Shown in pieces: positions 8,918 to 32,569 of a stretch of 64,000 nucleotides of DNA (the stretch's first letter is position 1; the number at the start of each line of letters is the position of its first letter). Where the stretch lies: the NCBI GenBank assembly GCA_947456305.1, contig CANGPN010000007.1, positions 1 through 64,000 of the forward strand, read 5' to 3'. Under the pieces are notes generated by a model. The model was not told the DNA's origin. It was given only the letters and a program-made list of their open reading frames with translations, and did not search any database. Source of the stretch: Comamonadaceae bacterium. Lineage in GTDB: Bacteria; Pseudomonadota; Gammaproteobacteria; Burkholderiales; Burkholderiaceae_C. A program made the position numbers and the translations under genes.

Positions 8918-8957
8918 GGCCGTTTTGCTGAAATAACCTAGCATTAGAATACCGAGC

Positions 8958-9311
8958 ATGGAACGGATACGTCAAGCCTCACATTTAGCCCGATTTGTGC
9001 TGGTGTGGTTTGTCATGTCTGTTGGCATTGCCATGGCTTCACCATGGGTCTCACCTAAGTCGATCGATATGGTCTGTACCGCAAGCGGTGCCATGAAGTT
9101 GGTGGCATCTGATGATGCAGACACGGCTGAACAAAATGTTCACACGATGGACTGTGCCTTGTGTATGGCAGTAGGCATCCCGCCTGCCTCCATTAAAAGT
9201 CAGTTCACCAAACCTTCACCTTTATCTCATGCCCTGAACTCTATAGAAGCGGCTCATATTGCTGCGGCGACTGCGCCGCCATTTCCTTCCCGCGGACCAC
9301 CCGCACTTTGA
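8958..9311 (+). CDS. Small exported DUF2946-type protein
   Basis: A 117-residue protein with one hydrophobic N-terminal segment (FVLVWFVMSVGIAMA) and a short MDCALCMAVG motif near residue 65. That layout is what I know from the DUF2946 family: one N-terminal helix, then a Cys-x-x-Cys-type centre. DUF2946 genes typically sit next to TonB-dependent receptors or copper/iron uptake genes, and here the TonB receptor begins 69 bp downstream. The function is unknown. A role in metal handling at the envelope is an inference from context. Confidence 0.65.
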   Translation: MERIRQASHLARFVLVWFVMSVGIAMASPWVSPKSIDMVCTASGAMKLVASDDADTAEQNVHTMDCALCMAVGIPPASIKSQFTKPSPLSHALNSIEAAHIAAATAPPFPSRGPPAL

Positions 9312-9379
9312 ACTTCATTTGACGTATGCACCAAGCATGGCTTGGTGTGCCTTCTTATTTTGAAATTCAGAGGTTTTTT

Positions 9380-11452: not shown

Positions 11453-11455
11453 GCT

Positions 11456-12613: not shown

Positions 12614-13104
12614 CCGTTCTTTTTTAAAAAGCGCGGGCTAAATCCTTCTTTATTGAAACCGCAAGACTTCAGCAGTGCAATAGAAGACAAGTTATCCGGC
12701 TGCACATTGGCTTCAAGCCTGTGTAACTTTAGGCGCTTGAATGCGATGGTGATTACTTGTTCAACGGCCTGTCGCATCAAGCCTTGTCGCAGGTGCGCTT
12801 GAAATGAGTAGTAAATCAAATAAGCATTTTTGAAATCGCCGTAAAAAATATCTCTTAACTCAACCACACCCGCCAACTCCCGCGTGTCGGTTCGTATGAC
12901 GGCCCATGCACGATCCTCAGTTGTATTCATCTCCAACACATAGTGTTGAAACGCCTTGCGGCTCAATGGCACTTGTACCCAAGGTTTGAGTAAATCCCGG
13001 CTCTCGCGCAAGCTTTGCATGAATGCGTTCTTGTCGGTCTCACGCAGCCGCCTGAGCTTGACTGGGACAGGCACCGGTGATTTGCGCTTTAAAGGTACAG
13101 GCAT
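12571..13104 (-). CDS. GNAT-family N-acetyltransferase (RimJ/RimL type)
   Basis: A 177-residue acetyltransferase. The C-terminal half has the RimJ/L pattern of beta-bulge, acetyl-CoA loop (AHLRQGLMRQAVEQVI) and RLEANVQPDNLSSIALLKSCGF, in which N-x-x-S-x-x-L-L-x-x-x-G-F is diagnostic. Members acetylate protein N termini or small molecules; the substrate is unknown here. The first 20 residues are rich in Pro, Lys and Arg. It converges on the PepSY gene with a 43-bp overlap. Confidence 0.85.
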   Translation of the reverse strand: MPVPLKRKSPVPVPVKLRRLRETDKNAFMQSLRESRDLLKPWVQVPLSRKAFQHYVLEMNTTEDRAWAVIRTDTRELAGVVELRDIFYGDFKNAYLIYYSFQAHLRQGLMRQAVEQVITIAFKRLKLHRLEANVQPDNLSSIALLKSCGFNKEGFSPRFLKKNGQWRDHERWALLAD

Positions 13105-13211
13105 TTGAGCAGTTTAAGCAGTCTTTAACTGTGCAGACTGCCGCTAAAAGCTATATATATGTATTAAATAGTGATTAATATATTGATTAAGTAATTAATT
13201 ATTAAGCATAG
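13105..13211. promoter_or_regulatory. AT-rich divergent intergenic region
   Basis: This 107-bp gap lies between the GNAT gene (minus) and the protease lipoprotein gene (plus). It contains an inverted repeat (GCAGTCT at 13118-13124 and AGACTGC at 13135-13141), then an unusually AT-rich block at about 13150-13205 with repeated ATTAA units. The block is likely to hold the promoter of the protease gene. I cannot assign -35 and -10 boxes with confidence. Confidence 0.35.
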
Positions 13212-14711
13212 ATGAAACTATTCCTCTTCGGCTGCTTGTTCGCGGCGGCTGTTTCATTATTGGCAGGGTGCAGCAGTGGCGGCGGTGGGGGTAGCACTGT
13301 CCCGTTAAAACTTGACGGACTGAGTGTGTATGACTACCAGACGGCAAGCAGTTCACAAAAACCTGTTTTGCAGGACGCCAGTTATCCAGCCGAATGGGAC
13401 AAATCCGGCAAGGTGACTCCGCCCAAGGTGTCGCCGCTGGAATCAGTCTACTCTGACGGTACTAAAGTGATCAGGGACGGTTCCGTAAACAAACCGTTTT
13501 TGCAATCCGAGTTGGCAACAGCCAAGATTCAAGACCCTAATGCAGTGGTTCGTAGCGTGAGTGAATTGGCCGCTGTGAGTACTTTGATTGGTTATCGGGC
13601 TATTGATTACGACTTGCGCTGGGGGACTCCTGACACCATGGGGCCAAGTTATGCGCAGCGATATGCCAACGGAACTTGGCAACCTGAGCAGCCGTTGAAA
13701 TTTTGGGGGCAGACATTGACTGGTTTAACTGGTCGATGCGGCTTCATATTGACTGGCACACCCTGTGTGTCGGACACAGGCCCCAGCCTTGCAGCACCCG
13801 CCCAAGACGTTCTTGACGCCTGGAATTTGGGCTGGACTGGTAAAGACGTGAATATTTTGATGGAGGATTTTCTGTATGACAAAGTAGATTTTCACGGCAC
13901 CATCACATCATTGATTGCATACCGTTATGCCCCGGGAGCAAAACTTTATGGCTTGAATTTCGGCGCTGATCAATCATCTCACTCTGTTGTCAATCTTGCA
14001 AATGAGACCTACCAAGGTGCGCCTATCAAGCTGGGGGTTGTTAACGCCAGCTATGTTGCGAACCTTGAGTTTTTGACGGGTAAGAAAACAGGATGGACTC
14101 AGGCGGAGTTGGATCAAGCCAGAATAGACAATACATACAACTCACTGCTGGTCACTAACCGGTTTCAAAATGCGTCCTACAAGGGGCAAGTCAATTACAC
14201 CGATGCTGTGATCACCAAGGCGGCGGGTAACGACGCCCTGCGGTCTGATCAGGAACCCATCAACAAGGCCTTGGCAGATATTTCTACCATCAACAGCCGT
14301 TTATTGATTGTGGGTGGACTGACCCAAGCAGGCACTACAGACAATCCCGTTGAAATTGCTTACTACAGCAACACGGCAGGAAAAGACGCAGCAGTCAGCA
14401 GCAGGTACCTGTTAGCCAGCGGTACCGTGCCCTTTGAATCCGGCGGCTTGGTGGTGAATGGCACGACGGTGCAAGCCAATTCCAATATGGGCACCTCTTA
14501 TGCGGCACCACGCGTGGCCGGCATGGTGGCCATTGTGCGCAGCAAATTTCCCAACCTGAACGCCAGCCAGACCGCGTCCATCATGCTGGACACCGCGCGG
14601 TATGACACTTTGGCTTGTTACTACACCGCTGGCGGGTGTGACAAAACCATTTATGGCAGGGGCGAAGCCAGTTTGTCCCGTGCTCTGGCTCCTGTGGGAA
14701 GGTTGCGCTGA
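13212..14711 (+). CDS. Subtilisin-like (S8) serine peptidase, lipoprotein
   Basis: A 499-residue predicted lipoprotein with lipobox LLAGC followed by a Ser/Gly-rich linker (SSGGGGG), so it should be anchored in a membrane facing the periplasm or outside. Catalytic features of S8 peptidases are visible: Ser429 in MGTSYAAPRVAG, His228 in DFHGT, the oxyanion Asn in AAGND, and a candidate Asp219 in ILMEDF. The Asp-His distance is only 9 residues, far shorter than in classical subtilisins, and the usual D-[ST]-G motif is altered. The target is unknown. The next gene starts 1 bp after its stop. Confidence 0.85.
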   Translation: MKLFLFGCLFAAAVSLLAGCSSGGGGGSTVPLKLDGLSVYDYQTASSSQKPVLQDASYPAEWDKSGKVTPPKVSPLESVYSDGTKVIRDGSVNKPFLQSELATAKIQDPNAVVRSVSELAAVSTLIGYRAIDYDLRWGTPDTMGPSYAQRYANGTWQPEQPLKFWGQTLTGLTGRCGFILTGTPCVSDTGPSLAAPAQDVLDAWNLGWTGKDVNILMEDFLYDKVDFHGTITSLIAYRYAPGAKLYGLNFGADQSSHSVVNLANETYQGAPIKLGVVNASYVANLEFLTGKKTGWTQAELDQARIDNTYNSLLVTNRFQNASYKGQVNYTDAVITKAAGNDALRSDQEPINKALADISTINSRLLIVGGLTQAGTTDNPVEIAYYSNTAGKDAAVSSRYLLASGTVPFESGGLVVNGTTVQANSNMGTSYAAPRVAGMVAIVRSKFPNLNASQTASIMLDTARYDTLACYYTAGGCDKTIYGRGEASLSRALAPVGRLR

Positions 14712-17768: not shown

Positions 17769-18731
17769 TCAAGCTATGGTCAGCAAAGGCAAATCGTGCG
17801 CTGTGGCCAGCGCGTCGATTTGCTTGCGAGTCAGGCCTGCAAAAAATGCACTTAGCTTCACATGTGTAGCTGGAAGCAGCATCACATCTTGCCCGGGCTT
17901 GGCGGCTTTGATGCCAGCCACTTCAGCCAAACGCGCTGCGAAATGTGGCTCTAAAGCTGCGACAGCCACACGACCTTTGATACACGCATACACCGCATAA
18001 CCTGCGTGCGCACCACCGACACTGCCTTTGGGCAGCGTCAACCCCCAATGTCGCGGCAAGGCCAGATAAGCCGCCGCGTCTTCCAAAGCCACCTCGTGAA
18101 ACACGCCTTTGCCGAGGGTGCGGCCGGGACGGGCGCGTTGCCACAGCGCTTTCAACACAGCTTCCACTGCCAGCGCAGAACCCGCCATGTCTGCAAACAA
18201 AGTGGCCGGCAAATTCAATCCATTGACCAGACCATTCGCGGCCAAGTAGGTTAAATCGTGTCCGGGAATTTCTGCACCTACACCTTTGGTGCCGACGATA
18301 CACACCTGTATCAGCGACGGGTATCTGGCGTGCAAACTGTTCCAGTCCATCCCGAGTTTTTTCAAAGCAGACGGCCTGAACGAGGTGATCAACACATCGG
18401 CTTTGGATAACAGTGCATGCAGCTTGGCCTGGCCTTTCGCGGACTTCAAATCGGCTTGCACCACCTTCACGCCCGCGTGCAAGTGCGCGTATGCATGCGG
18501 CGCGTACAGGCCCATAGGGTCGCTGGTACTGCCTTGGAGAGAACCAGCGGGCGGCAGCGGTTCCAGCTTGGTACAGGATGCGCCCATATCGGCTAAGCGC
18601 ATGACTGCAGCGGGGCCGGGCAGGTTGAGCGCGACGCTTAAGACGCGTACACCGCGCAGGCTGGTGTCGGAGGGGGTGAAGGCTTGGTTGCTAGACATGT
18701 ACTTGAAGTTGAGAGTGTGGTCAGGTGTCAT
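17769..18731 (-). CDS. CaiB/BaiF-type CoA-transferase family protein
   Basis: A 320-residue protein of the class III CoA-transferase / alpha-methylacyl-CoA racemase family. Conserved features are LRGVRVLSVALNLPGPAAVMRLADMGA near the N terminus, ADVLITSFRPSALKKLG and PSLIQVCIVG. At 320 residues it is shorter than most CaiB members (about 380-400), and the central D-x-x-x-Q-A-x-x-G motif reads HDLTYLAANGLVNG. Substrate unknown. A second in-frame ATG at 18698 is an equally possible start. Normal GC content ends here: everything upstream of its start is AT-rich island. Confidence 0.75.
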   Translation of the reverse strand: MTPDHTLNFKYMSSNQAFTPSDTSLRGVRVLSVALNLPGPAAVMRLADMGASCTKLEPLPPAGSLQGSTSDPMGLYAPHAYAHLHAGVKVVQADLKSAKGQAKLHALLSKADVLITSFRPSALKKLGMDWNSLHARYPSLIQVCIVGTKGVGAEIPGHDLTYLAANGLVNGLNLPATLFADMAGSALAVEAVLKALWQRARPGRTLGKGVFHEVALEDAAAYLALPRHWGLTLPKGSVGGAHAGYAVYACIKGRVAVAALEPHFAARLAEVAGIKAAKPGQDVMLLPATHVKLSAFFAGLTRKQIDALATAHDLPLLTIA

Positions 18732-19020
18732 GTTAAGCGGCTACTGCATACACATAGCCTTTTGCAGTGTAGGAATCAGCTTTTTAAGAATTTGTTCAAA
18801 ATAATTATCAAAAATCCTTCAAAAGCATTAGTTTTTGCTGATAAATCTATCAAATTAGATTTTTTAATACTGTTTTATTGAAATTAATGATTTAAAAAGT
18901 GATACTATATAGATTCTTGCTTTGATTTGTGTATTAAATAGTAGTCGTGAAGTGGTTTGACTATGAATCGCGAAGTAAGCACTGTTTAAAGGCCAGGTAG
19001 TTGATACCTAGTAAGAACAG

Positions 19021-19052
19021 CAATGGCTCAATCTGAAAAATTGAGGCCATTG
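19021..19052 (+). promoter_or_regulatory. RNA hairpin directly before the ops-like site
   Basis: CAATGGCTCAAT (19021-19032) pairs with ATTGAGGCCATTG (19040-19052) over 12 bp with one bulged G and a 7-nt loop. No T-run follows, so it is not a standard terminator. The GCGGTAGC element follows immediately, a position that suggests a pause or regulatory hairpin in the leader. Confidence 0.5.
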
Positions 19053-19061
19053 CGGTAGCCA
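19051..19061 (+). promoter_or_regulatory. ops/JUMPstart-like element (RfaH-type recruitment site)
   Basis: TGCGGTAGCCA matches the ops consensus GGCGGTAGYNT at 9 of 11 positions, including the whole GCGGTAG core. In enterobacteria ops elements recruit the antiterminator RfaH to long polysaccharide operons and lie just upstream of the first gene. Here the site is 19 bp before the exporter ATG. Whether this organism has an RfaH paralogue cannot be seen in the window. Confidence 0.4.
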
Positions 19062-19080
19062 TGAATAAATACTATTTAGT

Positions 19081-19767
19081 ATGAAACAACCTTTAGTACA
19101 TCTTTTAAATATTTCAATAAATCTATTTAAAAACTCGTCCGATAACTTTTCATTCAAGAAATTTTTATTGACTCAAAAGTTTTTACCGGAGTCAATTTCT
19201 ATTTTCAGTGATATTTCATTAGATATTTATAAAGGTGAAATCTTAGGTATAGTGGGTTCAAATGGTATTGGTAAAACTACATTGCTTTCAGCCATTGCAG
19301 GTATATTGCCGATTGCATCGGGTATACGCCAAGTGAGAGGAAAATGCCTTCCTTTATTGGGTTTAGGAAATGTATTTCATGGTGATTTAGATATTCAAAG
19401 AAATATAGTGCTTTGGGAAACATGCTTTAAATCTAATTTTGTAATTAATAATGATTTTGTTGACGATGTAATTAAAAAAGCAGGACTTAATATCAGTCAG
19501 ACGACTGTGATGCGAGCTTTATCTTCAGGCATGAAATCACGACTTGCATTTGAATTAGCAATGAGAGATACGTCTGATATTCTTTTACTTGACGAGGTAT
19601 TTTCTGTAGGGGACGCACATTTTAGAGAGCAATCTACGATCAGAATAAAAGAAAAACTAAAAACACTAGGGTGCGCAGTGATAGTTTCTCACGATCAGCA
19701 GGTATTAGAGGATAACTGTACAAAAATTATTCGAATAAAAGATCATATGACAATTGAAGTATGTTGA
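19081..19767 (+). CDS. ABC transporter ATP-binding protein, polysaccharide-export (Wzt/KpsT) type
   Basis: A 228-residue ATPase. Walker A is GSNGIGKTT, the signature is the polysaccharide-exporter variant LSSGMKSRLAFELAM, and Walker B is DILLLDEVFSVGD, followed by the switch His in VSHDQQ. The S-S-G-M-x-x-R-L-A-F and DE-V-x-x-V-G-D patterns are those of Wzt/KpsT/TagH rather than of importers. There is no C-terminal carbohydrate-binding extension as found in O9a-type Wzt. It is the first gene of the AT-rich cluster and pairs with the permease 28 bp downstream. Confidence 0.9.
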   Translation: MKQPLVHLLNISINLFKNSSDNFSFKKFLLTQKFLPESISIFSDISLDIYKGEILGIVGSNGIGKTTLLSAIAGILPIASGIRQVRGKCLPLLGLGNVFHGDLDIQRNIVLWETCFKSNFVINNDFVDDVIKKAGLNISQTTVMRALSSGMKSRLAFELAMRDTSDILLLDEVFSVGDAHFREQSTIRIKEKLKTLGCAVIVSHDQQVLEDNCTKIIRIKDHMTIEVC

Positions 19768-19795
19768 ATAATATTATTATCATTAATAAATAATT

Positions 19796-20557
19796 ATGAT
19801 TAAAGACTTTAATCTGGTGCAAATTAATAGATTTACAAGTCTACTACTAACTCTTCAGAAAAAAGATAATTTAATAGGTTTTATAATAGGGTTGGTCCCG
19901 ATATTAGTAACAGGATTTTCGATTGAACTTTTCATTGGTAAGGTTATCGGAGGTGAAATACATACTGACGGAATTAAGGGGGTATGTGCATTATTCTTTA
20001 TTTTTTTTAGTAATTCAATTTCGCAATCAACAATATCCATAAAAAATTATAGTTCAATTATTAAGAACTCATACTTACAACCAATGACAGTAATGCTTAG
20101 TGAGATTTTATTGCAATATCTAACTTTTATAATAGCATTTTTAATCTTCATACTTGTATTTAATATTTCTTTTATAAAATGTATTCTGCTTATCATATTA
20201 TCTTTTTTACTGTTTATATATACATTGGCATTAACAAACAGTTTGCTAGTATTAACTTCTATACTGGAGGATTTTGGTAGGATTCTAAGTATTATCTTTC
20301 AGATGCTTTTTTGGGTATCGCCTATTCTATATTCAATAAGATCAATTAAAACCGAATTAGTCTATATGTTTATGACTAACCCTTTTTATATTTTCTTTGA
20401 ACTAATATATCTGATTAATTCACCCGAATCATTTGATCATAATTTTTTTTGGTGGGGTTTTAGTTCATCATTAATTTTTTTAATAACTATATATTTATTA
20501 CTAAGAGAGTATCGAAAAAAAAATAATTGTATTTTTATAAAATATTCAAATAATTAA
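19796..20557 (+). CDS. ABC-2-type permease, polysaccharide export (Wzm-like)
   Basis: A 253-residue membrane protein with about six hydrophobic segments, consistent with the ABC-2/Wzm permease fold. The sequence before the last helices (ILSIIFQMLFWVSPILYSIR) matches the typical ABC-2 block with F-W-x-S-P-I-x-Y, and MTNPFYIFFELI follows as in Wzm/TagG proteins. With the upstream ATPase it would form the exporter for the product of this cluster, probably a lipid-linked or glycan product. The base composition is very AT-rich. Confidence 0.85.
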   Translation: MIKDFNLVQINRFTSLLLTLQKKDNLIGFIIGLVPILVTGFSIELFIGKVIGGEIHTDGIKGVCALFFIFFSNSISQSTISIKNYSSIIKNSYLQPMTVMLSEILLQYLTFIIAFLIFILVFNISFIKCILLIILSFLLFIYTLALTNSLLVLTSILEDFGRILSIIFQMLFWVSPILYSIRSIKTELVYMFMTNPFYIFFELIYLINSPESFDHNFFWWGFSSSLIFLITIYLLLREYRKKNNCIFIKYSNN

Positions 20558-20562
20558 TATTT

Positions 20563-21645
20563 ATGCAAATTGATCTTTTCCGTCCATCTGTACCTCCGTT
20601 ATCAGCCTATTATTCCTATTTAGAATTAATAGAGTCAAATCAGATATACTCTAATTTTGGCCCTATACATCATAAATTTAAAAAAAGGCTGGCTGATTAT
20701 TTTAATATTGGAGAAGAAAATATTGAGTTATTTTCAAGTGGAACGATGGCATTGGTTGCTGCACTCATTGCGTTACAAACTATAAATAAAGATGAAGTGC
20801 GTCCTTATTGCCTATTGCCTTCATGGACTTTTGTAGCGACAGTTCAATCCGTGATTGCAGCTGGCTTAACACCAATTTTTGTTGATGTTGAGGAGCAATC
20901 AATGCAATTAACTAAAAATATGATTGAGCAAGTTTCAAATGAAATCTTGCTAAAAACCTCAGTAGTTCTCGTAGTATCTCCTTTCGGGGCGCCACTAATT
21001 TTAGAAGGCTATGATTTGCTTTGCCAAACTTATGGATTCGAAGTACTTTGTGATTGCGCTGCAGGATTTGAATCTGCAAAATCATTCAATTTTCATACAG
21101 TTATATCGTTACATGCTACAAAAATATTTGGAATCGGAGAAGGTGGATTATTAATTAGTATAAATAAAAAATTAATTGAATATGCCAAAGCTTATAGCAA
21201 TTTTGGTTTTTTAAATTCAAGAAAATCGATTACAAGAGGTATTAATGGTAAATTTTCCGAAATTCAAGCCGCTATTGGACTAGCTGCACTTGACTTATGG
21301 GGTAGCAACAAAAAAGATTATTATCAAAAAGCCGCATATTATCTTGAGGCTGCCTTTAATCTGCCATTTCAATTTCAAGAAGGTTGGGGGCGAGACTGGG
21401 TGAGCTCAACTTGCGTTATTCGCTTTGATGATGAATCTCAAAAAAAATCCGTCCAAAAAGATTGGGCTAATAATAAAATACAAACCAGAGATTGGTGGAA
21501 TCAAGGTTGTCATTTAGAGCCTGCATTTTGTCATTATGAATTTATTAACATAAGAAACAATACTAATATATTGGCCAAAACTACTTTAGGTATACCGTTT
21601 TATAAAGATATTTCTCAAGATTCAATTAATCACATTTTTAAGTGA
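20563..21645 (+). CDS. DegT/DnrJ/EryC1/StrS-family PLP aminotransferase
   Basis: A 360-residue sugar-aminotransferase-type protein. Conserved features are FSSGTMALVAAL near residue 60, LPSWTFVATVQSVIAAGLTPIFVDV, the Asp of CDCAAGFES and the PLP-binding Lys187 in HATKIFGIGEGG. Family members transfer an amino group to keto-sugar nucleotides (as in VioA, FdtB or PglE) to make 3- or 4-amino sugars. It is 5 bp downstream of the permease. The sugar substrate is not deducible, and no sugar-nucleotide dehydratase is encoded nearby, so the keto-sugar must be made elsewhere. Confidence 0.88.
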   Translation: MQIDLFRPSVPPLSAYYSYLELIESNQIYSNFGPIHHKFKKRLADYFNIGEENIELFSSGTMALVAALIALQTINKDEVRPYCLLPSWTFVATVQSVIAAGLTPIFVDVEEQSMQLTKNMIEQVSNEILLKTSVVLVVSPFGAPLILEGYDLLCQTYGFEVLCDCAAGFESAKSFNFHTVISLHATKIFGIGEGGLLISINKKLIEYAKAYSNFGFLNSRKSITRGINGKFSEIQAAIGLAALDLWGSNKKDYYQKAAYYLEAAFNLPFQFQEGWGRDWVSSTCVIRFDDESQKKSVQKDWANNKIQTRDWWNQGCHLEPAFCHYEFINIRNNTNILAKTTLGIPFYKDISQDSINHIFK

Positions 21646-21662
21646 CTTATGATTAAAGCATA

Positions 21663-22577
21663 ATGACTTTAAATAATATAGAAATTAGTGTAATTGTACC
21701 GACATTTAGGCATGAACAATTTATTGAGAGTTGTCTAAACAGTATTATCCAACAGAAATTAAATTTTAATATTGAAATATTGGTAGGCGATGATTGCTCA
21801 CCAGATGGTACTGCATCGGTAATTGAGAGAATTGCAAAGTCAGATGACCGTATTGTTTTATATAAATGGCTTCGAAATGAAGGTGGTTTAAAAAATATTG
21901 ATAAGTTGCTTGAAAAGGCACGTGGTCGATATATTTCTATTATAGAGGGTGATGATTTTTGGTTGACTAATGATCACCTGTATAAGAGTATTAATTATCT
22001 AAATAATGATAACTCTCTGAGTTTTGTCGCAACGAATTATCTTAACTTTCATAATGATTCATATTTCATGCGTCAAAAAATGAGTGTAATGAAAACAACT
22101 AGACTCAAATTTTGGCAATTAGCTTTTGGTAATTTTTTACAAATGGGCACTATGGTATTTAGAAGAGAGTTATTTGCTCGAATTCCAAATGACGCTTTTG
22201 ACTTTCACATAGGTGATTATCCAATGATTCTATTACTATTAAATCAAGGAGACGGATTACTTTTAGAAAGTTTTAATATGGCTTACAGAGAACATTCTGG
22301 CGGGGTTTGGTCTGTTCAAAGTAACAATAATAAAATTAATCAAACACAAGAGACTATAAGATGGATGATAGATAGAAAATATTTTATTTATTTTAAAAAA
22401 ATCTTTTTACGAATTTATTTGGCAAAGTTAAAATTTAGTGCCGGTAATAAATTAGTATTCATTGAATTTTTTTTATATCTTCCTGTTTTTTTGATTTTTA
22501 TATTATTTCGAAATTTTTCACTTCCTACCATTTGTGATAACAATAGAGAGTTAAAGAGATTAAATATTAATGCTTGA
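21663..22577 (+). CDS. Family 2 glycosyltransferase
   Basis: A 304-residue GT-A fold glycosyltransferase. The N terminus ISVIVPTFRHEQFIESCLNSI is typical, with nucleotide-binding Asp43-Asp44 in VGDDCSPDG and the metal-binding Asp97-Asp98 in EGDDFW. The C terminus has a hydrophobic stretch (FFLYLPVFLIFILF), suggesting membrane association. It is the only glycosyltransferase in the cluster. A separate small ACP gene follows. Confidence 0.9.
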   Translation: MTLNNIEISVIVPTFRHEQFIESCLNSIIQQKLNFNIEILVGDDCSPDGTASVIERIAKSDDRIVLYKWLRNEGGLKNIDKLLEKARGRYISIIEGDDFWLTNDHLYKSINYLNNDNSLSFVATNYLNFHNDSYFMRQKMSVMKTTRLKFWQLAFGNFLQMGTMVFRRELFARIPNDAFDFHIGDYPMILLLLNQGDGLLLESFNMAYREHSGGVWSVQSNNNKINQTQETIRWMIDRKYFIYFKKIFLRIYLAKLKFSAGNKLVFIEFFLYLPVFLIFILFRNFSLPTICDNNRELKRLNINA

Positions 22578-22611
22578 ATACTTAGATAGCTATTTGATTT
22601 TTTTTTAAACT

Positions 22612-22617
22612 AAGGAG
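22612..22617 (+). promoter_or_regulatory. Strong ribosome-binding site of the ACP gene
   Basis: AAGGAG lies 8 bp before the ATG of the acyl carrier protein gene. It is clearly stronger than the sites of its neighbours, which suggests that ACP is made in excess of the enzymes. Confidence 0.6.
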
Positions 22618-22625
22618 AATTTGCA

Positions 22626-22844
22626 ATGAGTGAGTACGACTTTTTGGAAGAATTTATATCTGCTATTGATCCAGCTGAGCCTGATTTGATAAATATCGAA
22701 AGTCATTTAGCTTCAATTCCTGAGTGGGATTCTCTCGCTGTCCTCGGCGTGATTGTAATGTTTGAAACATTATTTGATAGAAAAATTACAGGCGAAATTA
22801 TTGCAAGTGCTCAAACTGTCAGAGATATTTTTAATTTTATTTGA
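22626..22844 (+). CDS. Acyl carrier protein
   Basis: A 72-residue acidic protein with the ACP fold. Ser36 in EWDSLAVLGVIVMFE is the expected attachment site of 4'-phosphopantetheine (D-S-L motif), followed by FETLFDRKITGEII. It differs from housekeeping AcpP, which has GADSLDTVELVMALE, and resembles the dedicated ACPs of polysaccharide or natural-product clusters. With the KAS III-like enzyme 14 bp downstream it probably carries a short acyl chain made for this pathway. Confidence 0.88.
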   Translation: MSEYDFLEEFISAIDPAEPDLINIESHLASIPEWDSLAVLGVIVMFETLFDRKITGEIIASAQTVRDIFNFI

Positions 22845-22858
22845 TATAAAGGATTAAT

Positions 22859-23914
22859 ATGACTTTTGGAACACTTTCAGGAATAGTAATTCGAGGGATT
22901 TCTACTGTAGTGCCAACTATTAAAATGGATAACCTCGCAGTTAATCCTGAAGAATTGGTTCAACGTGAACGTCTAGTTCGAAATATTGGTATCCGTTTCC
23001 GCAGAGTTTGCAAGTCTGGTCAGATTTTTTCTGATTTAGTTCAATCGGCGTGTGAGGATTTATTATCAAATCTCAATTGGTCTAAAAAATCTGTTGATTT
23101 ATTATTAGTGGTAACTCAGTCTGGTGAGTATATTATTCCATCTACCTCAATAATTTTGCAAGATCGGATAGGCTTTCCAACTTCAACTCTCGCTTTTGAT
23201 ATTAATTTAGGATGCTCAGGTTATCCTTATGGTGTAATAGTTCTTGGCTCAATTATGAAAAGTTTGGGACTAAAGAGAGGAGTTCTATTAGTCGGCGATC
23301 AGTCATCTTCTACAGGATCCCCCGATGCTGGACGGGAAATATTATTCAGTGATTGTGGTACGGCGACTGCTTTAGAGTTGGATGATAAAGCTTCGGAATT
23401 GTACTTTGATGGCTTTTCTGATGGCTCTGGTGCTCTTGCGATATATGTTCCTCATGGTGGAAAACGACATAGTACGGAAAAAGAAAGCCATGATTATCGT
23501 TTAATGAACGATGGTGTTACTAGAAAAATGACTGACGTTCATTTGGATGGCCCTGCAATTATGAATTTTTCTATTGGAGTAGTGCCTGATGCATTACGGG
23601 CGATTTGTACAAAATCTGAAATACAAATTGAAAAAATCGATTATTTTGTTCTTCATCAAGCTAATAAAATGATAAATGAGACAATTCGAAAAAAAATGAA
23701 AATGCCAGAGGAGAAATTTCCATTGGTTTTATATGAATATGGAAATACTAGCTCTGCTACTATTCCTATCACAATTTCATCTAAGCTTAAAGAATCTATT
23801 GCGCTTGCTGATAAATTAATATGCGTTTGTGGTTTTGGTATAGGTTTATCTTGGGCTTCACTAATTTTTAAACTTGGTCCAGAAACTTATATTTCATCCG
23901 TGATTGAAGCGTAG
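22859..23914 (+). CDS. KAS III-like beta-ketoacyl-ACP synthase
   Basis: A 351-residue FabH-family protein. The complete catalytic triad is present: Cys119 in NLGCSGYPYG, His266 in LHQANKMI and Asn296 in YGNTSSATIP. KAS III enzymes condense an acyl-CoA with malonyl-ACP, and cluster-specific versions use their own ACP. It is a little longer than FabH (about 320). Together with the ACP and the SDRs it could make a 3-keto and then a 3-hydroxy short acyl chain. It ends in TAG, 4 bp before the next gene. Confidence 0.9.
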   Translation: MTFGTLSGIVIRGISTVVPTIKMDNLAVNPEELVQRERLVRNIGIRFRRVCKSGQIFSDLVQSACEDLLSNLNWSKKSVDLLLVVTQSGEYIIPSTSIILQDRIGFPTSTLAFDINLGCSGYPYGVIVLGSIMKSLGLKRGVLLVGDQSSSTGSPDAGREILFSDCGTATALELDDKASELYFDGFSDGSGALAIYVPHGGKRHSTEKESHDYRLMNDGVTRKMTDVHLDGPAIMNFSIGVVPDALRAICTKSEIQIEKIDYFVLHQANKMINETIRKKMKMPEEKFPLVLYEYGNTSSATIPITISSKLKESIALADKLICVCGFGIGLSWASLIFKLGPETYISSVIEA

Positions 23915-23918
23915 TTTG

Positions 23919-24659
23919 ATGAAGTCATCAAATAATATTTTTAGGTTTGAAGGTAAGCATATTGTTGTTGCGGGTGGTACTTCTGGAATAGGTTTAGCAG
24001 TCGCTAGAACTATAAAAGAATTAGGTGGTGTCGTTACAATTATTGGTCGTAATTCAGAGTTACTTAACACAATCAAATTAGATGGGTTTAATATAATAAA
24101 CCATGATCTTTTCGAACTTAGCTCACTTAATCAATTAGCAGTATAGGTTGATGAATTCGATGGTTTGCTTTGGTCTGCTGGGATGGCTGAAACGCTGAGA
24201 CCTTTTGGTTTGCTCACTCTTTCATTGATTGAAGAACTTATAAATAAAAATTGCTACGCACCGTTTGAATTTATTGTTAAAGCTCAAAAAGCACGTAAGA
24301 TTAAAAATGGTGGATCTATCTGTTATGTGAGTTCAGTGATTGAAAAATGTGGCACGCTAGGATCTGGTGGCTATGGATTAGCTAAATCTGGTTTTTCCTC
24401 TCTTGCAAGAAGTATAGGATTAGAACTAGTCAAGAAAAAAATTAGAATTAATTCAGTAGCTTATGGATATATAGATACAAAATTCATAAAAAATCTTGGT
24501 GGTTCAAAAGATATCATCAACTCAATTCCGATGGGCATTTTGACAGCTGAACAGGCTTCTGGTGTTGCTGTATTTTTACTTTCAGAAGCTTCAAAATATA
24601 TTACTAGACAAACTATATTAGCAGACTCAGGTGTGACACTACATCAATCGTTGGCATAA
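23919..24659 (+). pseudogene. Short-chain dehydrogenase/reductase interrupted by an in-frame TAG
   Basis: Read through one TAG (24144-24146, codon 76), this is a complete 246-residue SDR. The first part (23919-24143) has the Rossmann motif AGGTSGIG. The second, in the same frame, has the WSAGM (NNAG-like) motif, the catalytic Tyr and Lys in GGYGLAKSG, and a normal C terminus (ILADSGVTLHQSLA). Both halves align end to end with the neighbouring SDR. A single-base change (for example CAG to TAG) would explain the stop. It may be a recent nonsense mutation, a sequencing error, or a read-through site. Confidence 0.8.
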
Positions 24660-25403
24660 ATGTTTTGTAACCTTTTTGATAAAAAAATTTTAATTACTGG
24701 TGCATCTTCGGGAATAGGTTCTGAAACTGCATTTGTTTCGGCTTCGAGGGGAGCAACTCCTATTTTAGTTGGAAGAGATATTGAGCGTCTGGAGAATGTA
24801 AAAAATCGAATATTAGAATCTGAATATAGGTGTGGTAATATTTATTCGATTGATTTGTCTACATCAGAGGGTGTAAATAAATTAGTTAGAAATATAAAAG
24901 AACCTGTCGATGGTATTGTATTTTCAGCAGGAATTTCTAAACCAAGACCTCTTCAATTAATAACAGAAGAATATTTAGATGAAAATTTTTCAATTAATAC
25001 TTTTTCTCCTTTTCTAATACTTTCAAAATTACAGAAAAGCAGATTAATTTCTCCAAATGCTTCTATCGTATTCCTGTCGTCTATTGCAGCAGTTACAGGT
25101 ACAAAAGGAACAGTTATTTATTCAGCCTCAAAAGGAGCCCTCATAGGTGCTTCAAAGGCACTCGCTGATGAGTTATCTAAAAAGAAAATTCGAGTTAATG
25201 TTGTTTCTCCAGCTGTGGTTAGAACTGCTATTTTTTCTTCTGAACAAGAAGGCTATTTAGAAGAGCAGTCAAAAAAATATCCCTTAGGGCTAGCTTCAAC
25301 TCTGGATATTGCAGCTACCATTGTTTTTTTAATATCTGATTCTTCAATTTCAATTACTGGTGAAAATATAGTTATTGATTCCGGTTGCACAAATATTTCC
25401 TAA
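24660..25403 (+). CDS. Short-chain dehydrogenase/reductase (FabG-like)
   Basis: A 247-residue classical SDR with TGASSGIGSETA (NAD(P) binding), VFSAGISKP (NNAG position), catalytic Ser in FLSSIAAV and Tyr/Lys in YSASKGALIGASKAL. The C-terminal GENIVIDSGCT is typical of FabG-like enzymes. A likely role is reduction of a 3-ketoacyl-ACP, or of a keto-sugar. It starts directly after the stop of the interrupted SDR and is its paralogue, so it may cover the missing activity. Confidence 0.88.
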   Translation: MFCNLFDKKILITGASSGIGSETAFVSASRGATPILVGRDIERLENVKNRILESEYRCGNIYSIDLSTSEGVNKLVRNIKEPVDGIVFSAGISKPRPLQLITEEYLDENFSINTFSPFLILSKLQKSRLISPNASIVFLSSIAAVTGTKGTVIYSASKGALIGASKALADELSKKKIRVNVVSPAVVRTAIFSSEQEGYLEEQSKKYPLGLASTLDIAATIVFLISDSSISITGENIVIDSGCTNIS

Positions 25404-25409
25404 TATTTC

Positions 25410-26531
25410 ATGAAACTATCTGATATCTATTCTAGTCAAGATTTTTTTAAATTAGAAAAATCTCATATATTTGAAAAATATTGGATTTATTTTTGTCAAG
25501 CATCTTTTTTAAAAAAAAATAATGATACTTTTTCACGTAATGTTTGCGGCAATCCAGTAAGTGTTCGAAATACTGGTGATAAATTAATTGCATTTGAAAA
25601 TATTTGCGCTCACCGTAAGGCCACTATTTTTTTTGAAGAACATTCGAATCGTCCATTTTCATGTAAATATCATGGATGGGTTTATGATAAAGAAGCTGTT
25701 TTATATAAGATTCCAAATTCTCAAATATATGAATTTACTTCACAGCAAGTTGAGAAATGTGGAAAGCTGAAACGTTATTCTGTAAAAATTTTAGGTAATA
25801 TGGTTTTTATAAATTTATCGCCCAATCCAATTCCAATAGAAGAACAATTTCATGATGAGTTTTTATCGCAAATAGTAGAGTCATCAGGTCATTTTGATGA
25901 TTCTGTAACTTCAACTAGTTGGCAGGCTAAATACAACTGGAAATTAAATTTTGAAAATGTACTGGATTGGAATCACGTTCGTTTTGTTCATCCTAATACA
26001 TTTGCGCCTTTACAAGTAGGAAGTGATATTGAAGTTGATAATTCTCAAGAATGGAAAAATAATACCGGATCTGAAATAACTGACCTGTTGCATAGAAAGA
26101 TTGATGTTCGTGACTTGAGTTATTCAACTCAGAGTGAAATAAAACTTACAGATCGTTGGATCAGGAAACATATTAACCGATATAAGAACAAAGATATTTA
26201 CTATAACTGGTATATTTTTCCTAACGTTAATTATTGTTCAATAGGCGGTGATCATTTTTTAATACAACAATTCGACCCAATTAATTCTATATCTAATGAC
26301 TTTAGATTAGAAATAGTGACTGCTAGAAGAAATGAGTTAGTTAATTTTTTACCTTTATTAACTGCTTTAATTGAAGGTGAGAAACGCGTAATAGATGAAG
26401 ATACAGTTTTTCTAGAAAGTCAACAATTAAATTTGAATAATGATAATTTAAATAATTATTTACAAGGTGCAAATGAAAAAGCTTTATTAGTTTTTAAAAA
26501 ATGGCTTTTGGATAACGTATATGGACAGTAA
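25410..26531 (+). CDS. Rieske non-heme iron oxygenase (alpha-subunit type), copy 1
   Basis: A 373-residue Rieske oxygenase. The [2Fe-2S] ligands are Cys66 and His68 (ICAHRKA) and Cys85 and His88 (SCKYHGWVYD). The mononuclear iron site has the D-x2-H-x4-H motif with Asp186, His189 and His194 (LDWNHVRFVHP). The size fits single-component VanA/KshA-like oxygenases that need a separate reductase, and no reductase or ferredoxin gene is nearby. It probably hydroxylates or demethylates an intermediate of the cluster. Such enzymes are rare in glycan loci; CMP-Neu5Ac hydroxylase is a known Rieske enzyme acting on a sugar nucleotide. Confidence 0.9.
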   Translation: MKLSDIYSSQDFFKLEKSHIFEKYWIYFCQASFLKKNNDTFSRNVCGNPVSVRNTGDKLIAFENICAHRKATIFFEEHSNRPFSCKYHGWVYDKEAVLYKIPNSQIYEFTSQQVEKCGKLKRYSVKILGNMVFINLSPNPIPIEEQFHDEFLSQIVESSGHFDDSVTSTSWQAKYNWKLNFENVLDWNHVRFVHPNTFAPLQVGSDIEVDNSQEWKNNTGSEITDLLHRKIDVRDLSYSTQSEIKLTDRWIRKHINRYKNKDIYYNWYIFPNVNYCSIGGDHFLIQQFDPINSISNDFRLEIVTARRNELVNFLPLLTALIEGEKRVIDEDTVFLESQQLNLNNDNLNNYLQGANEKALLVFKKWLLDNVYGQ

Positions 26532-27141
26532 TAAAAAATTAAAAATTATTGGAGAGGGTGAATGGTTATATTATGCTTATTCTGCGGCTATTGAATATAA
26601 CCGATGGAATACTATCGAGCTTTTTGATATAATTAAAATAAATGAATACTCATATGATTTAAGTGGATTTAATATACCTGAAGAAAATGTTGATTATTTT
26701 CTTGCAATTGATGGTTCTATATTTGGAACCGTTAGAGAAAAACATTTATCTATTTTGGTTTCAAAAGGTTTTAATTTCATTTCAATTATGCCCTCACATA
26801 TGTCTTCAATTATGAAGAATATGAATTGTTTAATTGCTTCTTTCGTCAATATTAATAATTTTAATTTTCGAATTCAATTTAATACATTTATTGGCCCTTA
26901 TTGCAATTTACCATCTAGTTTTTCTACTGGACGATCAGTAACTATCGGTCCCTATACTGATATTCAACCTGGAGTAAGTATTGGCAAGAATGTTACATTA
27001 ATTGGAGTCAAAAAAATTTCTTCTAATATCTCAATTGGCGAATATACAAAAGTTGATAATATTGAAATTATCAATAAGGTAATTAAGCCATTAACAAGTC
27101 ATACACATTTATTTCCTAGGTCTGTAAATATTAAAAATTAA
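26521..27141 (+). CDS. Left-handed beta-helix acyltransferase-like protein, copy 1
   Basis: A 206-residue protein with an N-terminal alpha/beta part and a C-terminal hexapeptide-repeat segment (VTIGPYTDIQPGVSIGKNV, then ISIGEYTKV). It overlaps the upstream Rieske gene by 11 bp. The repeat region is short and partly degenerate, with no clear catalytic His as in PglD/NeuD enzymes, so activity is uncertain. The N-terminal half (VDYFLAIDGSIFGTV, IMPSHMSSI) resembles the corresponding part of the protein at 28241-28864, which suggests a duplication. Confidence 0.65.
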   Translation: MDSNKKLKIIGEGEWLYYAYSAAIEYNRWNTIELFDIIKINEYSYDLSGFNIPEENVDYFLAIDGSIFGTVREKHLSILVSKGFNFISIMPSHMSSIMKNMNCLIASFVNINNFNFRIQFNTFIGPYCNLPSSFSTGRSVTIGPYTDIQPGVSIGKNVTLIGVKKISSNISIGEYTKVDNIEIINKVIKPLTSHTHLFPRSVNIKN

Positions 27142-27157
27142 TATAATTTCAATCAAA

Positions 27158-28266
27158 ATGAAATCTCTAAATGATAAATACGCAACCGATAGAGGTGATT
27201 ATTTTTTCTCTAATTATTGGATTTATTTTTTAGTTTAACTACTCAAATATCAAATAAATATGATTATATAAAAAAAAGTATTGCCGGGAAATCAATAATT
27301 GTAAGAAATGATGGTGAAAGGCTAAGAGCGTTTGAGAATAGATGCCCGCATAGAAATGCTCAGCTTTTTAGTGAAGATGAAGGTAACGCTTATTTAAGAT
27401 GTCCTTTTCATGGCTGGGGGTTTAGATCTGATGGTTCATTGGCTGGCATTCCTTATAACGAGGAGATGTATGGTTTCTCGAAAGAATATTGTCAAAATAT
27501 TTCACTGCTTGAATATGGCCTTGAGATAATTGGAAAATTTATTTTTATTAATTTATCGCACACACCTTTAAAAATTGAAGATCAATTTTCTATATTTATG
27601 CTTGAGGATCTTAAAAACCTTAGTAAGCATATAGATACTAACTTCTCAACAACTAAAATTCATGCTAAGTGCAATTGGAAGTTGATCATGGAAATTGTTA
27701 TGGATCCTTTGCATATTCCATTTGTCCACCCAAGTACCATAAGTACTAAGAGACCGTTTGTTCCACCATCTTCAACGATTATTCATAATAAAGAATTTAA
27801 TTATTATCGTATTAATGAATTATCTTATAAAACAACTACATCATTACCACATGAGGATGAGAATTGGCATCCATTGGTAGAGAGTTATCCATCTAAGGGT
27901 ACTTATTTAGAATACTATTTTTTTCCTAATTTACATTTCATAGTACCTACAGGAGGATTTAGTTTTGCTTATTGTGCCCAGTTTCCACAAGAATATAACT
28001 TGACAACTATAAATTATTTTTATGCAACTGCTAAACGAAAAGTAAATCATAGAATTTTTCCAATTGTCAACATCGAAGCCTTTGGTTTTGGACTTCGTAC
28101 TTTCTTGGAAGATGTAGCAATGATGGAGAATGTTCAGCTTTCAGCTAATTCTGATCTATTAACTGGTAATTTTGGAAATTATGAAATGCATATTAAGGCT
28201 TGGCGCAATTTTTTCAGAGATTTTGATTATGAGAATTCCAATGAAACAACTTTATCTTCTAAATGA
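27158..28266 (+). CDS. Rieske non-heme iron oxygenase, copy 2, needing a -1 frameshift
   Basis: From the ATG at 27158 the first 26 codons (ending in NYWIYFLV, then TAA at 27236-27238) align with the start of Rieske copy 1. The rest of the protein continues in the -1 frame from about 27229. The two frames join at T TTT TTA (27226-27232). The downstream part is intact: CPHRNA and CPFHGWGF bind the [2Fe-2S] cluster, and MDPLHIPFVHP (D-x2-H-x4-H) binds the iron. Total length would be about 369 residues. Either one T was lost from the T6 run or the ribosome shifts at this heptamer. The 3' end overlaps the next gene by 26 bp. Confidence 0.8.
27226..27232 (+). other. Slippery heptamer T TTT TTA at the frame junction
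   Basis: In the frame of the ATG at 27158 the codons are TAT TTT TTA, giving the canonical X XXY YYZ heptamer T TTT TTA. A -1 slip there leads directly into the long open frame (next codon AGT at 27232). No clear stem-loop is visible in the 60 bp downstream, so a plain homopolymer indel remains the simpler explanation. Confidence 0.4.
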
Positions 28267-28864
28267 TAATACCGATTATTCAAAAAAATGTATTGAATTG
28301 GCTTTATCATTTTATTATTCGCTAGATATTATTGATATTGATAATAAAAGTACCGAGAATACTTTTTCAATGAATTTCTTTAATAAATTTTCAGGTAACA
28401 ATGTATTTATAGCTGCGGATGAGCAATTTTTTAGCATGCTACGAATGAATTTATTAAAAGTTATTTTATCAAAAAAAGCATTTTTAATTAATTTAATATC
28501 ACAAAATATCCGTATTCCCAGTCATTCAATATTGGGTAAAAATATATTTATTGGCGATAATGTTTTTTTAGGTGAAAATGTTGTCATTGGTGATGGTGCA
28601 ATTATTGATAGCCGTGCTATTATCATGCACAATTGCATTATTGGTAAAGGTGTTTTCATAGGTAGAGAAGCCGTAATTGGGTCTAATTCTCTGATAGGTA
28701 GTAACACGGTTATTGGTTCAAAAGTATTTATAGATTCAATAAAAGTTGGTTCTAAATGTAAGGTATTTAATATGGGGCGTTATTCCGCCGACATTCCTAC
28801 TTACACCAGTTTCATTGAGAATCACTCAGAACCAATCACTTATCGCGAAAATTTACTATGTTGA
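28241..28864 (+). CDS. Left-handed beta-helix acyltransferase, copy 2
   Basis: A 207-residue protein with a clear run of hexapeptide repeats (FIGDNVFLGENVVIGDGAI, then GREAVIGSNSLIGSNTVIGS), the fold of sugar O- and N-acyltransferases using acyl-CoA or acyl-ACP. The N-terminal about 85 residues resemble the equivalent part of the protein at 26521-27141. The start used is the ATG at 28241 (MKQLYLL); an ATG at 28229 is also in frame. It overlaps the Rieske gene upstream and the next acyltransferase by 7 bp. Confidence 0.75.
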   Translation: MKQLYLLNDNTDYSKKCIELALSFYYSLDIIDIDNKSTENTFSMNFFNKFSGNNVFIAADEQFFSMLRMNLLKVILSKKAFLINLISQNIRIPSHSILGKNIFIGDNVFLGENVVIGDGAIIDSRAIIMHNCIIGKGVFIGREAVIGSNSLIGSNTVIGSKVFIDSIKVGSKCKVFNMGRYSADIPTYTSFIENHSEPITYRENLLC

Positions 28865-29490
28865 ATCAATTAATAATAATTGGTGCAGGGGGGCTTGGAA
28901 GATCTTTAATGTCTATTGCTTTGTCAGACCGAGGGAATGGCGTAGATTGGACTCCAATAGGCTATTTAGACTCTCGTGCAACGAATTTATTTGACCAAAA
29001 TATTTCAGATTTAATTCTTGGATCTCCTTTTTTCTATCAACCAAGAAAATTTCAATATTTTATCTGTGGAGTTGGATATCCAAAATTAAAAAGAAAATTT
29101 GTTGAATCTCTTCTTGAAAAAAATGCTCTTTTCATTCCTTTCCTACCTCAAAAAAATGTTGGTGAAAACAGCATAATTGGTATTGTTTTTTTTATGGTTA
29201 ATGTTTCTATTGGCGTGGATTGTGTGATTGAGGATTTTGTTTTCATTGACCAGAGAACAATTGTTGGACACAACGTATCAATTGGTCGTTATTCACATAT
29301 CGGTTTTAGTGTAAATATTGCTGGAAATGTCAATATTGGTGAAGAGGTAATTATTCATTCAGGTGCCAATATTGGTCGTGGAATAAAAATTGGTAATGCT
29401 GCTGAGATAGGTATGGGGGCGGTTGTATTACGAGATGTACCTGACGGCGCAATCATGGTGGGAAATCCAGCAAGAAATATTAAGTTCTAA
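28858..29490 (+). CDS. NeuD/PglD-type sugar acyltransferase
   Basis: A 210-residue protein with an N-terminal Rossmann-like sugar-nucleotide domain (IIIGAGGLGRSLM) and a C-terminal left-handed beta-helix. The catalytic His is likely in IVGHNVSIGRYSHIG, and the end is the family signature VVLRDVPDGAIMVGNPAR. PglD and NeuD enzymes acetylate amino sugars such as UDP-4-amino-sugars or sialic acid. With the aminotransferase upstream it could acylate the new amino group using acetyl-CoA or the cluster's acyl-ACP (inference). Translation is coupled to the previous gene by overlap. Confidence 0.85.
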   Translation: MLNQLIIIGAGGLGRSLMSIALSDRGNGVDWTPIGYLDSRATNLFDQNISDLILGSPFFYQPRKFQYFICGVGYPKLKRKFVESLLEKNALFIPFLPQKNVGENSIIGIVFFMVNVSIGVDCVIEDFVFIDQRTIVGHNVSIGRYSHIGFSVNIAGNVNIGEEVIIHSGANIGRGIKIGNAAEIGMGAVVLRDVPDGAIMVGNPARNIKF

Positions 29491-29512
29491 TAAATTAATT
29501 TGGAGCAAAATC

Positions 29513-30625
29513 GTGAAATTTTTTATCTTAGGTGATCGTAAAATGATGTATTTGAAACCGGCATTACTGAATGATCCTGATTTTGGTGGATTTTTAATCG
29601 ACTCCGCTAATATATTTGATTTTGAGAGGAGAGTTAGAAGTAGTTACTCTAATAAACAAATTAGTTTTAAAAATTTTTTACGTTATTCAAAAGCTAATGG
29701 TGCAAATCTAGTTCTTTATTACAACGATATAGTTGGTTCTAAGTTGTTTAGAAATTACTTATATTCATTATCTAACGAATTTTGTTTTAATATTAAAGAT
29801 TTTTTTGAATTTTCATTCTATAAAAACATTCCTCTTGTTTATGACACACCACAAGATCTCGTGAATCAAATTTGTTATAGAAAAAAAGATTGGGAAATAT
29901 TGGCTGAGAGAGTGTCTGATCAATTTTCTAAAGAATCAATCAAAGCATATTTAAGAGCTATAGAGAAAAAATCTATTGATGAAATGATTCCATATGTAGT
30001 TCCCTTTGATTTTGAAAGTTTCAATAAATACTCTAATCACTTTTCTTTTATGCCCACTGATGATGAAATTTTTGTGGATATTGGTGCTTACGACGGTGAT
30101 TCTGTTGCTAAATTTATTGAATCTACTCCTACAGGCGGATATCGGGAAATTCATGCGTTTGAACCAAATAAATCTACATACGCTCAACTTGTATTAAGAA
30201 AACAATGGATTCCCAGATTATTTACTTACGAATTGGCTTTATCAAATCAAAATAGTTTCAGTATTTTTAATAATGATGGTGGGTCTATGGGTGCCAGACT
30301 TTATGACGGTAATGCTGAAGTATTTAATGAAAATGATTGTTGCAAAGTTCAGACTGTTAGGCTTGACGATGTATTAAAAAATGCAACGTTTATTAAGATG
30401 GATGTTGAAGGCTTTGAAAAAAATGTCGTTGATGGTGCCAAAGAATTAATCCGTAAATGTAGTCCTACTTTGGTTATTGATACCTATCACCATGCAAATG
30501 ACGCTTTGGAGATTTATGAGGCAGTTATGAATATACATAAGTACTCTTTTGTTGGTATGAGATTCGTACATGCCAATTTACACGCACATTCACTTTATTT
30601 TTCTGATACCAAAAATCTTGTTTAA
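29513..30625 (+). CDS. FkbM-family methyltransferase
   Basis: A 370-residue protein whose C-terminal half is an FkbM SAM-dependent methyltransferase: motif I VDIGAYDGDS at about residues 188-197, the acidic HAFEPNKSTYAQL and the FkbM block FIKMDVEGFEKNVVDGA. The first about 180 residues match nothing I recognise. The start is GTG at 29513, with GGAG 7 bp upstream; the frame is open further 5', within the previous gene. FkbM enzymes often O-methylate glycans or natural products. It is the last gene of the AT-rich island. Confidence 0.85.
   Translation: MKFFILGDRKMMYLKPALLNDPDFGGFLIDSANIFDFERRVRSSYSNKQISFKNFLRYSKANGANLVLYYNDIVGSKLFRNYLYSLSNEFCFNIKDFFEFSFYKNIPLVYDTPQDLVNQICYRKKDWEILAERVSDQFSKESIKAYLRAIEKKSIDEMIPYVVPFDFESFNKYSNHFSFMPTDDEIFVDIGAYDGDSVAKFIESTPTGGYREIHAFEPNKSTYAQLVLRKQWIPRLFTYELALSNQNSFSIFNNDGGSMGARLYDGNAEVFNENDCCKVQTVRLDDVLKNATFIKMDVEGFEKNVVDGAKELIRKCSPTLVIDTYHHANDALEIYEAVMNIHKYSFVGMRFVHANLHAHSLYFSDTKNLV

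Positions 30626-30663: not shown

Positions 30664-32569
<1,906 letters not shown>

Follow-up and report, generated by a model that had tools for sequence, protein, structure and literature searches.

An AT-rich island in a Comamonadaceae genome places a flagellin-type sugar cassette with Rieske oxygenases beside a candidate glycan exporter

The viosamine island of Pseudomonas syringae and the glycosylation island of P. aeruginosa PAK encode VioA, VioS (a beta-ketoacyl-acyl carrier protein synthase III, KAS III), VioR, VioB, an acyl carrier protein (ACP) and a methyltransferase, and are defined by the product N-(3-hydroxybutanoyl) 2-O-methyl viosamine; they use a large transferase, VioT, the glycan is on flagellin, and the seven-gene table lists neither a Rieske gene nor an exporter (PMC3927599). 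A related row of genes lies in the flagellar cluster of Xanthomonas (XCV2006-XCV2013), where an aminotransferase, ACP, 3-oxoacyl-ACP synthase, two short-chain dehydrogenases/reductases (SDRs), an acetyltransferase and a Rieske protein follow one another beside fleQ and flagellar genes, with a single Rieske and no Wzm/Wzt named in the part of the table available (PMC3826837). Here, we describe a 14-gene, AT-rich island at 19081-30625 of a 64,000-base stretch of DNA (the window) from a Comamonadaceae bacterium (assembly GCA_947456305.1), in which a cassette of this kind stands next to a putative ATP-binding cassette (ABC) exporter pair of the Wzm/Wzt type.

The genes of the Xanthomonas-type module (ACP, KAS III, SDR, VioB-like, Rieske and short beta-helix) are all present in the island, as is the viosamine-type core of aminotransferase, ACP, KAS III, reductase and VioB, the ACP and VioB models scoring under their cut-offs. 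A first-pass annotation of this DNA had likened the combination of ACP, KAS III, SDRs, VioB/NeuD-like protein and aminotransferase to that of N-(3-hydroxybutanoyl)-viosamine loci, and the published composition agrees (PMC3927599). The context departs from that of the Xanthomonas-type module, which lies beside flagellar genes or a GT41-type transferase: the flagellins of this genome are on contig C25, the island is on C7, and the best GT41-like match (26% identity) is on C9. The VioB-like gene follows the Rieske genes here and precedes them in the Xanthomonas-type module, and the XCV2006-XCV2013 row ends, in the part of its table available, with a hypothetical gene where the Xanthomonas loci of our survey hold a short beta-helix gene. 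An island of ten genes in X. oryzae, gigX (Yu et al. 2018, as cited in PMC8657755 and PMC6859632), probably corresponds to the same set; further literature is found in PMC7970052, PMC4875605 and PMC5045587. To O-polysaccharide loci dependent on a Wzm/Wzt ABC transporter the island is similar in having a candidate ABC-2 permease and an ATPase ahead of sugar genes, and it differs in carrying an acyl/oxygenase cassette and in that no C-terminal Wzt domain was found. The nearest NCBIfam models of the pair are galactan Wzt and Wzm, with scores far under those cut-offs.

In our judgement these genes are best read as a horizontally gained operon for a surface glycan that is exported and carries an oxidised N-acyl amino sugar, with a probability of roughly 0.6 for the reading as a whole, gain included. 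Directly supported are the gene families, the retention of catalytic residues in KAS III and in the two Rieske proteins, the insertion, and an exporter gene order found in three lineages. No description of an exporter-coupled Rieske/KAS III arrangement was found in the open-licence PubMed Central (PMC) literature. The earlier statement that no described system has this exact set therefore holds for the exporter-coupled arrangement only; the enzyme set, Rieske included, recurs in 66 of 80 surveyed loci and in the available part of the Xanthomonas table (PMC3826837). The parts are known, and the joining of a flagellin-type sugar cassette to a surface-polysaccharide exporter is a little-described variant.

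Insertion and gene content of the AT-rich island

The window covers the start of contig C7 (64000 of its 137,800 bases); the draft genome spans 52 contigs and 2.59 Mb and is 86.9% complete. The features are as follows.

18653-18721: end of the aligned left flank, near the start of a coenzyme A (CoA)-transferase III gene
18732..19080, plus strand: operon leader, with a stem-loop and the 8-base GCGGTAGC located 22-29 bases ahead of wzt
19081..19767, plus strand: Wzt-like ABC ATPase, 228 aa (PF00005, E 4.7e-18, 66.5 bits; gathering score 25)
19796..20557, plus strand: Wzm-like ABC-2 permease (PF01061, E 3.4e-4, 20.7 bits; gathering score 26.9)
20563..21645, plus strand: DegT/StrS sugar aminotransferase (PF01041, E 7.3e-46; PDB 3ju7, E 1e-43)
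21663..22577, plus strand: GT2 glycosyltransferase (PF00535, E 1e-25)
22626..22844, plus strand: ACP with DSL serine (weak matches: NCBIfam, E 5.6e-4; PF00550, E 0.039)
22859..23914, plus strand: KAS III (PF08541, E 8.2e-25)
23919..24659, plus strand: SDR1 (in-frame TAG at 24144-24146)
24660..25403, plus strand: SDR2, a FabG-like reductase (PF13561, E 1.9e-42)
25410..26531, plus strand: Rieske oxygenase 1 (PF00355, E 3.2e-13; PF00848, E 2.1e-14)
26521..27141, plus strand: short beta-helix protein 1, partner of Rieske 1 (PF00132, E 1.6e-7)
27158..28266, plus strand: Rieske oxygenase 2 (PF00355, E 6.7e-15; frame change near start)
28241..28864, plus strand: short beta-helix protein 2, partner of Rieske 2 (PF00132, E 7.4e-15; fold matches of PerB/PglD type)
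28858..29490, plus strand: VioB/NeuD/PglD-type sugar N-acyltransferase (TIGR03570, 143 bits; cut-off 160.8)
29513..30625, plus strand: FkbM methyltransferase (PF05050, E 3e-17; GTG start picked by eye, open frame from 29423)
30664-30669: end of the aligned right flank (gene of 4-hydroxybenzoate hydroxylase type)

These coordinates and family-model matches confirm the gene content named in the first-pass annotation, the permease match being under its gathering score, and the common direction of the genes; its count of twelve or thirteen is corrected to 14. The DegT/StrS protein reaches 105.8 bits against the DesI model, far under the cut-off of 650. The ACP slot ahead of KAS III is kept across relatives, and Cys119, His266 and Asn296 of KAS III are invariant in an alignment of four rows.

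As had been proposed, the island is richer in A and T than both flanks. Its G+C content is 0.310 against 0.537 across the remaining window, where the lowest value among stretches of 11545 bp (250-bp steps, island removed) is 0.515. Third-position G+C is 0.15-0.25 in 13 island genes (SDR1 excluded), as compared with 0.49-0.71 in 18 chosen flank genes. Stretches of six relatives were aligned to the window, of which L112 spans one flank only and five span both; the flank ends, about 12 kb apart in the window, lie 85, 212, 417, 45 and 10 bp apart in L109, L110, L111, L113 and L114, respectively. Since the flanks nearly abut (10-417 bp) in these five relatives, the island is an insertion. The right-flank gene was matched in 72 of the 84 genomes of the genus, and the island KAS III (E 1e-50) in one, the genome under study.

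Several routes of entry were considered and rejected. The two tRNAs of the window, at 38075 and 38191, do not fit tRNA-directed integration, and the longest word common to both island edges is 10 bases, not meaningful as a flanking direct repeat. A plasmid-borne module was discarded because KAS III at E 1e-60 matched no plasmid record, and a phage-borne one because Rieske 1 at E 1e-20 matched no phage record. Elsewhere in the window, 9001-14000 and 41001-44000 form two more low-G+C stretches, at 0.44-0.49, below their surroundings.

Two interrupted genes, like the pairing of Rieske and short beta-helix genes discussed below, had been overlooked in the first-pass annotation. Both halves of SDR1, on either side of its stop codon, match adjoining parts of the first SDR in the same relatives, and in Rieske 2 the first ~25 codons (27158-27238) are in a different frame from the remainder (27217-28266). 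The aligned flank pieces of three relatives contain no uncompensated frame-breaking gap within genes (gaps between separate pieces being uncounted), which does not point to an assembly that is error-prone overall. With two genes interrupted, the pathway as a whole may be shut down or modified in this genome, and the island is possibly inactive here. The locus might then be a decaying remnant, a gained cassette whose product is no longer made in this strain; the stop in SDR1, the frame change in Rieske 2, the lack of such gaps in the aligned flank genes and the presence of KAS III in 1 of 84 genus genomes all speak for it. We nonetheless think decay improbable, as the 12 other genes are open, KAS III keeps its triad and the Rieske proteins their ligands, and the evidence for it comes from a single draft assembly.

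Exporter-coupled relatives of the cassette

The order Wzt-Wzm-DegT-GT2-ACP-KAS III-SDR-SDR is identical in the window, in Polynucleobacter cosmopolitanus (locus L029) and in L127, a locus from the same taxonomic order; a search with Wzm matched 2 of 399 genomes of that order, the genome under study and that of L127. L029 is 78% identical to the window in Wzt, 68% in Wzm, 58% in DegT, 44% in GT2 and 50% in KAS III. Its ACP lies between GT2 and KAS III, followed by the SDRs, a VioB-like gene and two Rieske genes at 24-40% identity, and a dehydratase of the RmlB/GDP-mannose dehydratase family is encoded ~1 kb past the last cluster gene. The P. cosmopolitanus cluster ends with a 4HBT-type thioesterase (15970-16377 of L029); none was recognised in the window island. 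In L127 the identities are 60% (Wzt), 40% (Wzm), 44% (DegT), 44% (GT2), 36% (ACP), 48% (KAS III) and 29-33% (SDRs); a Rieske gene and a VioB-like beta-helix gene precede Wzt, and the block is surrounded by a PF00953 (WecA-type) initiator, RmlC, GT2s and nucleotide-sugar genes. Directly past its SDRs, a 458-aa protein (6105-7478 of L127, minus strand) has no Pfam match at E 0.001. Because the exporter and DegT of L029 are more alike to those of the window than the decorating enzymes are, it appears as if the cassette had been exchanged; in L127 this pattern is not clear, KAS III being closer than Wzm, and the families differ in their natural rates.

Three Bordetella loci (L018, L019 and L021), all cut by contig ends, were rejected as instances of the same exporter type, their Wzt being different (29% in L018, 33% in L021, recognised by profile only in L019). 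L018 has a sugar-phosphate transferase (PF02397) nearby, and L021 (Bordetella hinzii) holds two tandem ACP/KAS III/SDR/Rieske/beta-helix sets with a Wzt-like gene between them.

The enzyme set itself is distributed more widely. Rieske 1 (E 1e-25) matched 4 of 250 genomes of the family, the genome under study and three others (L007, L008 and L009), each with a KAS III 46% identical to that of the window. A tetratricopeptide repeat transferase of the GT41 type lies beside all three clusters (family verified for L008), and those of L007 and L008 adjoin flagellin and FliD genes. A contig scan with the KAS III alignment returned at least 591 stretches and at least 525 confirmed relatives, from which the survey retained the 80 best loci; counts among them are biased by selection on KAS III similarity, genes were called with home-made profiles, and L066 duplicates L008 (identical KAS III), so that this set overlaps L007-L009 by one. 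ACP, KAS III, SDR, VioB-like and Rieske genes occur together in 66 of the 80 loci, 57 of which also have DegT. FliC/FliD or GT41 accompanies 53 of the 66, a Wzt-like gene 4, and neither 9. A Rieske gene is missing from 14 of the 80 loci and present in 65 of the 73 of at least 12 kb. The first-pass annotation had named scattered, unrelated genes in relatives as the finding that would tell against it; the cluster is conserved, and the proposal stands on that point.

The exporter-linked KAS III proteins group together, along with one other. In a tree of 85 rows, built by a quick method, the six exporter-linked rows together with L017 split from the other 78 at 99% support (Shimodaira-Hasegawa-like approximate likelihood ratio test, SH-aLRT), and the exporter label needs 2 changes, against a mean of 5.9 in 500 shuffles, none of which was as low. 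The split holds at 99-100% after dropping 13 rows (mostly close copies), or the L127 or window row; the branches leading to the window and to L127 are long, and close Bordetella kin make up three of the six exporter rows.

The 228-aa Wzt matches only ATPase-type Pfam families at E 0.01, and the C-terminal carbohydrate-binding domain of the cap-recognising class was not found in it at that threshold. In the leader, the RNA fold of 18985-19080 has a z-score of -2.72 (1 of 200 shuffles equally good). GCGGTAGC, which we take to resemble the ops core, occurs once in the window, both strands counted, and an RfaH-family gene is above cut-off on C24 of the same genome. No JUMPstart match to the leader was obtained in Rfam at E 1. 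A leader recurring at other operons was rejected: apart from the copy here, the genome has a single exact copy of the 14-base motif, and that one falls within an open frame. With up to 2 mismatches the motif has 35 matches against 63 for the reversed control. RfaH/ops regulation is thus only hinted at.

Rieske oxygenases and their beta-helix partners

Both Rieske proteins of the window have the CxH...CxxH motif and the 2-His-1-Asp triad; in Rieske 1 (structure model with a predicted local distance difference test score, pLDDT, of 89.2) the [2Fe-2S] ligands are C66, H68, C85 and H88 and the iron ligands H189, H194 and D331. Identity to Rieske monooxygenases of the CntA and stachydrine demethylase type is ~20%, a likeness that establishes no common substrate. 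A role like that of sialic-acid hydroxylase was rejected on the sole basis that no nonulosonate synthase family was among the island matches.

Our own profiles recognise 90 Rieske genes in the 80 loci. They are followed by a short beta-helix gene in 59 cases, another Rieske in 6, FkbM in 5 and VioB-like in 1, with none within reach in 19; conversely, of 61 short beta-helix genes, all but one have a Rieske gene directly upstream. In 20 of the 80 loci there are at least two Rieske genes, and the window carries two Rieske/beta-helix pairs. The Rieske profile was built from 25 rows, of which the window and L007-L009 supplied 5 (one L009 Rieske omitted) and 17 chosen loci the other 20, taken from 25 listed; the beta-helix profile had 18, 2 from the window and 16 of 18 others. 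A Rieske tree on which the exporter rows need 3 changes (mean of 10.6 in 500 shuffles, none as low) gives no conclusion, because it joins long branches and the composition of eight rows is odd.

The model of beta-helix protein 2 (pLDDT 77.9, with a weak N-terminal part; four other models 54-66) matches sugar N-acetyltransferases of the PerB/PglD type: PerB (E 7e-7, template-modelling score, TM, only 0.46) and PglD (3bsw, TM 0.58 by model length). Unlike the VioB-like family, in which His138 is kept in 83% of 84 rows, the columns filled by beta-helix protein 1 contain no histidine at 80% conservation among 68 rows; the short beta-helix proteins may therefore not be ordinary acetyltransferases. 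We tentatively suggest, as one possibility, that Rieske and short beta-helix proteins could form a single unit for O2-dependent editing of N-acyl amino sugars, within a portable cassette that would serve flagellin glycosylation or, with a separate KAS III lineage, a Wzm/Wzt exporter in several lineages of one order. No description of oxygen-dependent editing of N-acyl amino sugars on bacterial glycans was found in the open-licence PMC literature.

Predicted pathway and destination of its product

Judging from the gene families, the aminotransferase would convert an NDP-4-keto-6-deoxysugar to an amino sugar. RmlB is encoded in the genome (above cut-off on C24) and is common, as 10 of the 14 control genomes also have it above cut-off. 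The ACP, KAS III and SDRs would assemble a short 3-hydroxyacyl chain, with which the VioB-like protein would acylate the amino group. Oxidation of either the acyl chain or the sugar may then fall to one or both Rieske proteins, each with its own beta-helix partner; FkbM would methylate, the GT2 would attach the sugar to a lipid-linked chain, and Wzm/Wzt would export the glycan.

Several observations weigh against an exported surface glycan. SDR1 and Rieske 2 are interrupted in this genome; the operon holds a single glycosyltransferase; Wzm scores under the Pfam gathering score, the Wzt-Wzm pair being nevertheless conserved in L029 and L127; and no ferredoxin or reductase partner for the Rieske proteins was recognised among the island genes by family-model matches. 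A motif scan of relatives for such a partner gave 84 matches, and most of the 40 that were listed are in frames that are not coding-like. In addition, L017, on the exporter side of the KAS III tree, has GT41 and no exporter, the same enzymes mostly occur with flagellin or GT41 (53 of 66 loci), and flagellins are encoded both in the genome under study and in that of L029 (flagellin-domain genes).

These last points could equally be read as a cassette that still decorates flagellin here, with the adjacent exporter pair and GT2 serving something else. The Xanthomonas flagellar cluster, in the available part of its table, carries the same set (PMC3826837), and C25 encodes two flagellins and a FlgL-like gene. 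The module is not beside them; it lies on a separate contig, the best match to the GT41 of flagellar loci is weak (26% identity, E 1.2e-19), and three lineages have the exporter block together with the module, so that flagellin is an unlikely target in our estimation. The only other KAS III match in the genome is 30% identical and on C11, so there is no second module beside the C25 flagellins. By those flagellin genes lies a 3028-aa frame (4992-14078 of locus L015 on C25, minus strand) made of short TTAQ/TTDQ-rich repeats, which looks like a giant repetitive surface protein.

A small-molecule pathway with its own ABC exporter, leading to an amino-sugar lipid or a natural product, would also draw on KAS III, ACP, Rieske and FkbM, which natural-product loci are generally known to hold. 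Release, ligase and modular synthase genes were not recognised among the island family-model matches, and the relatives lie by flagellar or GT41 genes in those 53 of 66 cases and by polysaccharide genes in L127; such a pathway is very improbable.

If an exported surface glycan is indeed the product, one enzyme cassette would be common to flagellin glycans and exported surface polysaccharides, and in many Betaproteobacteria, as well as in Xanthomonas and Pseudomonas, the sugars of the cell surface would be substrates of oxygenases. The pairing of Rieske and beta-helix proteins poses a biochemical question, namely which substrate is oxidised and what role the partner plays. Surface acyl amino sugars would, plausibly, be targets of phages and grazers.

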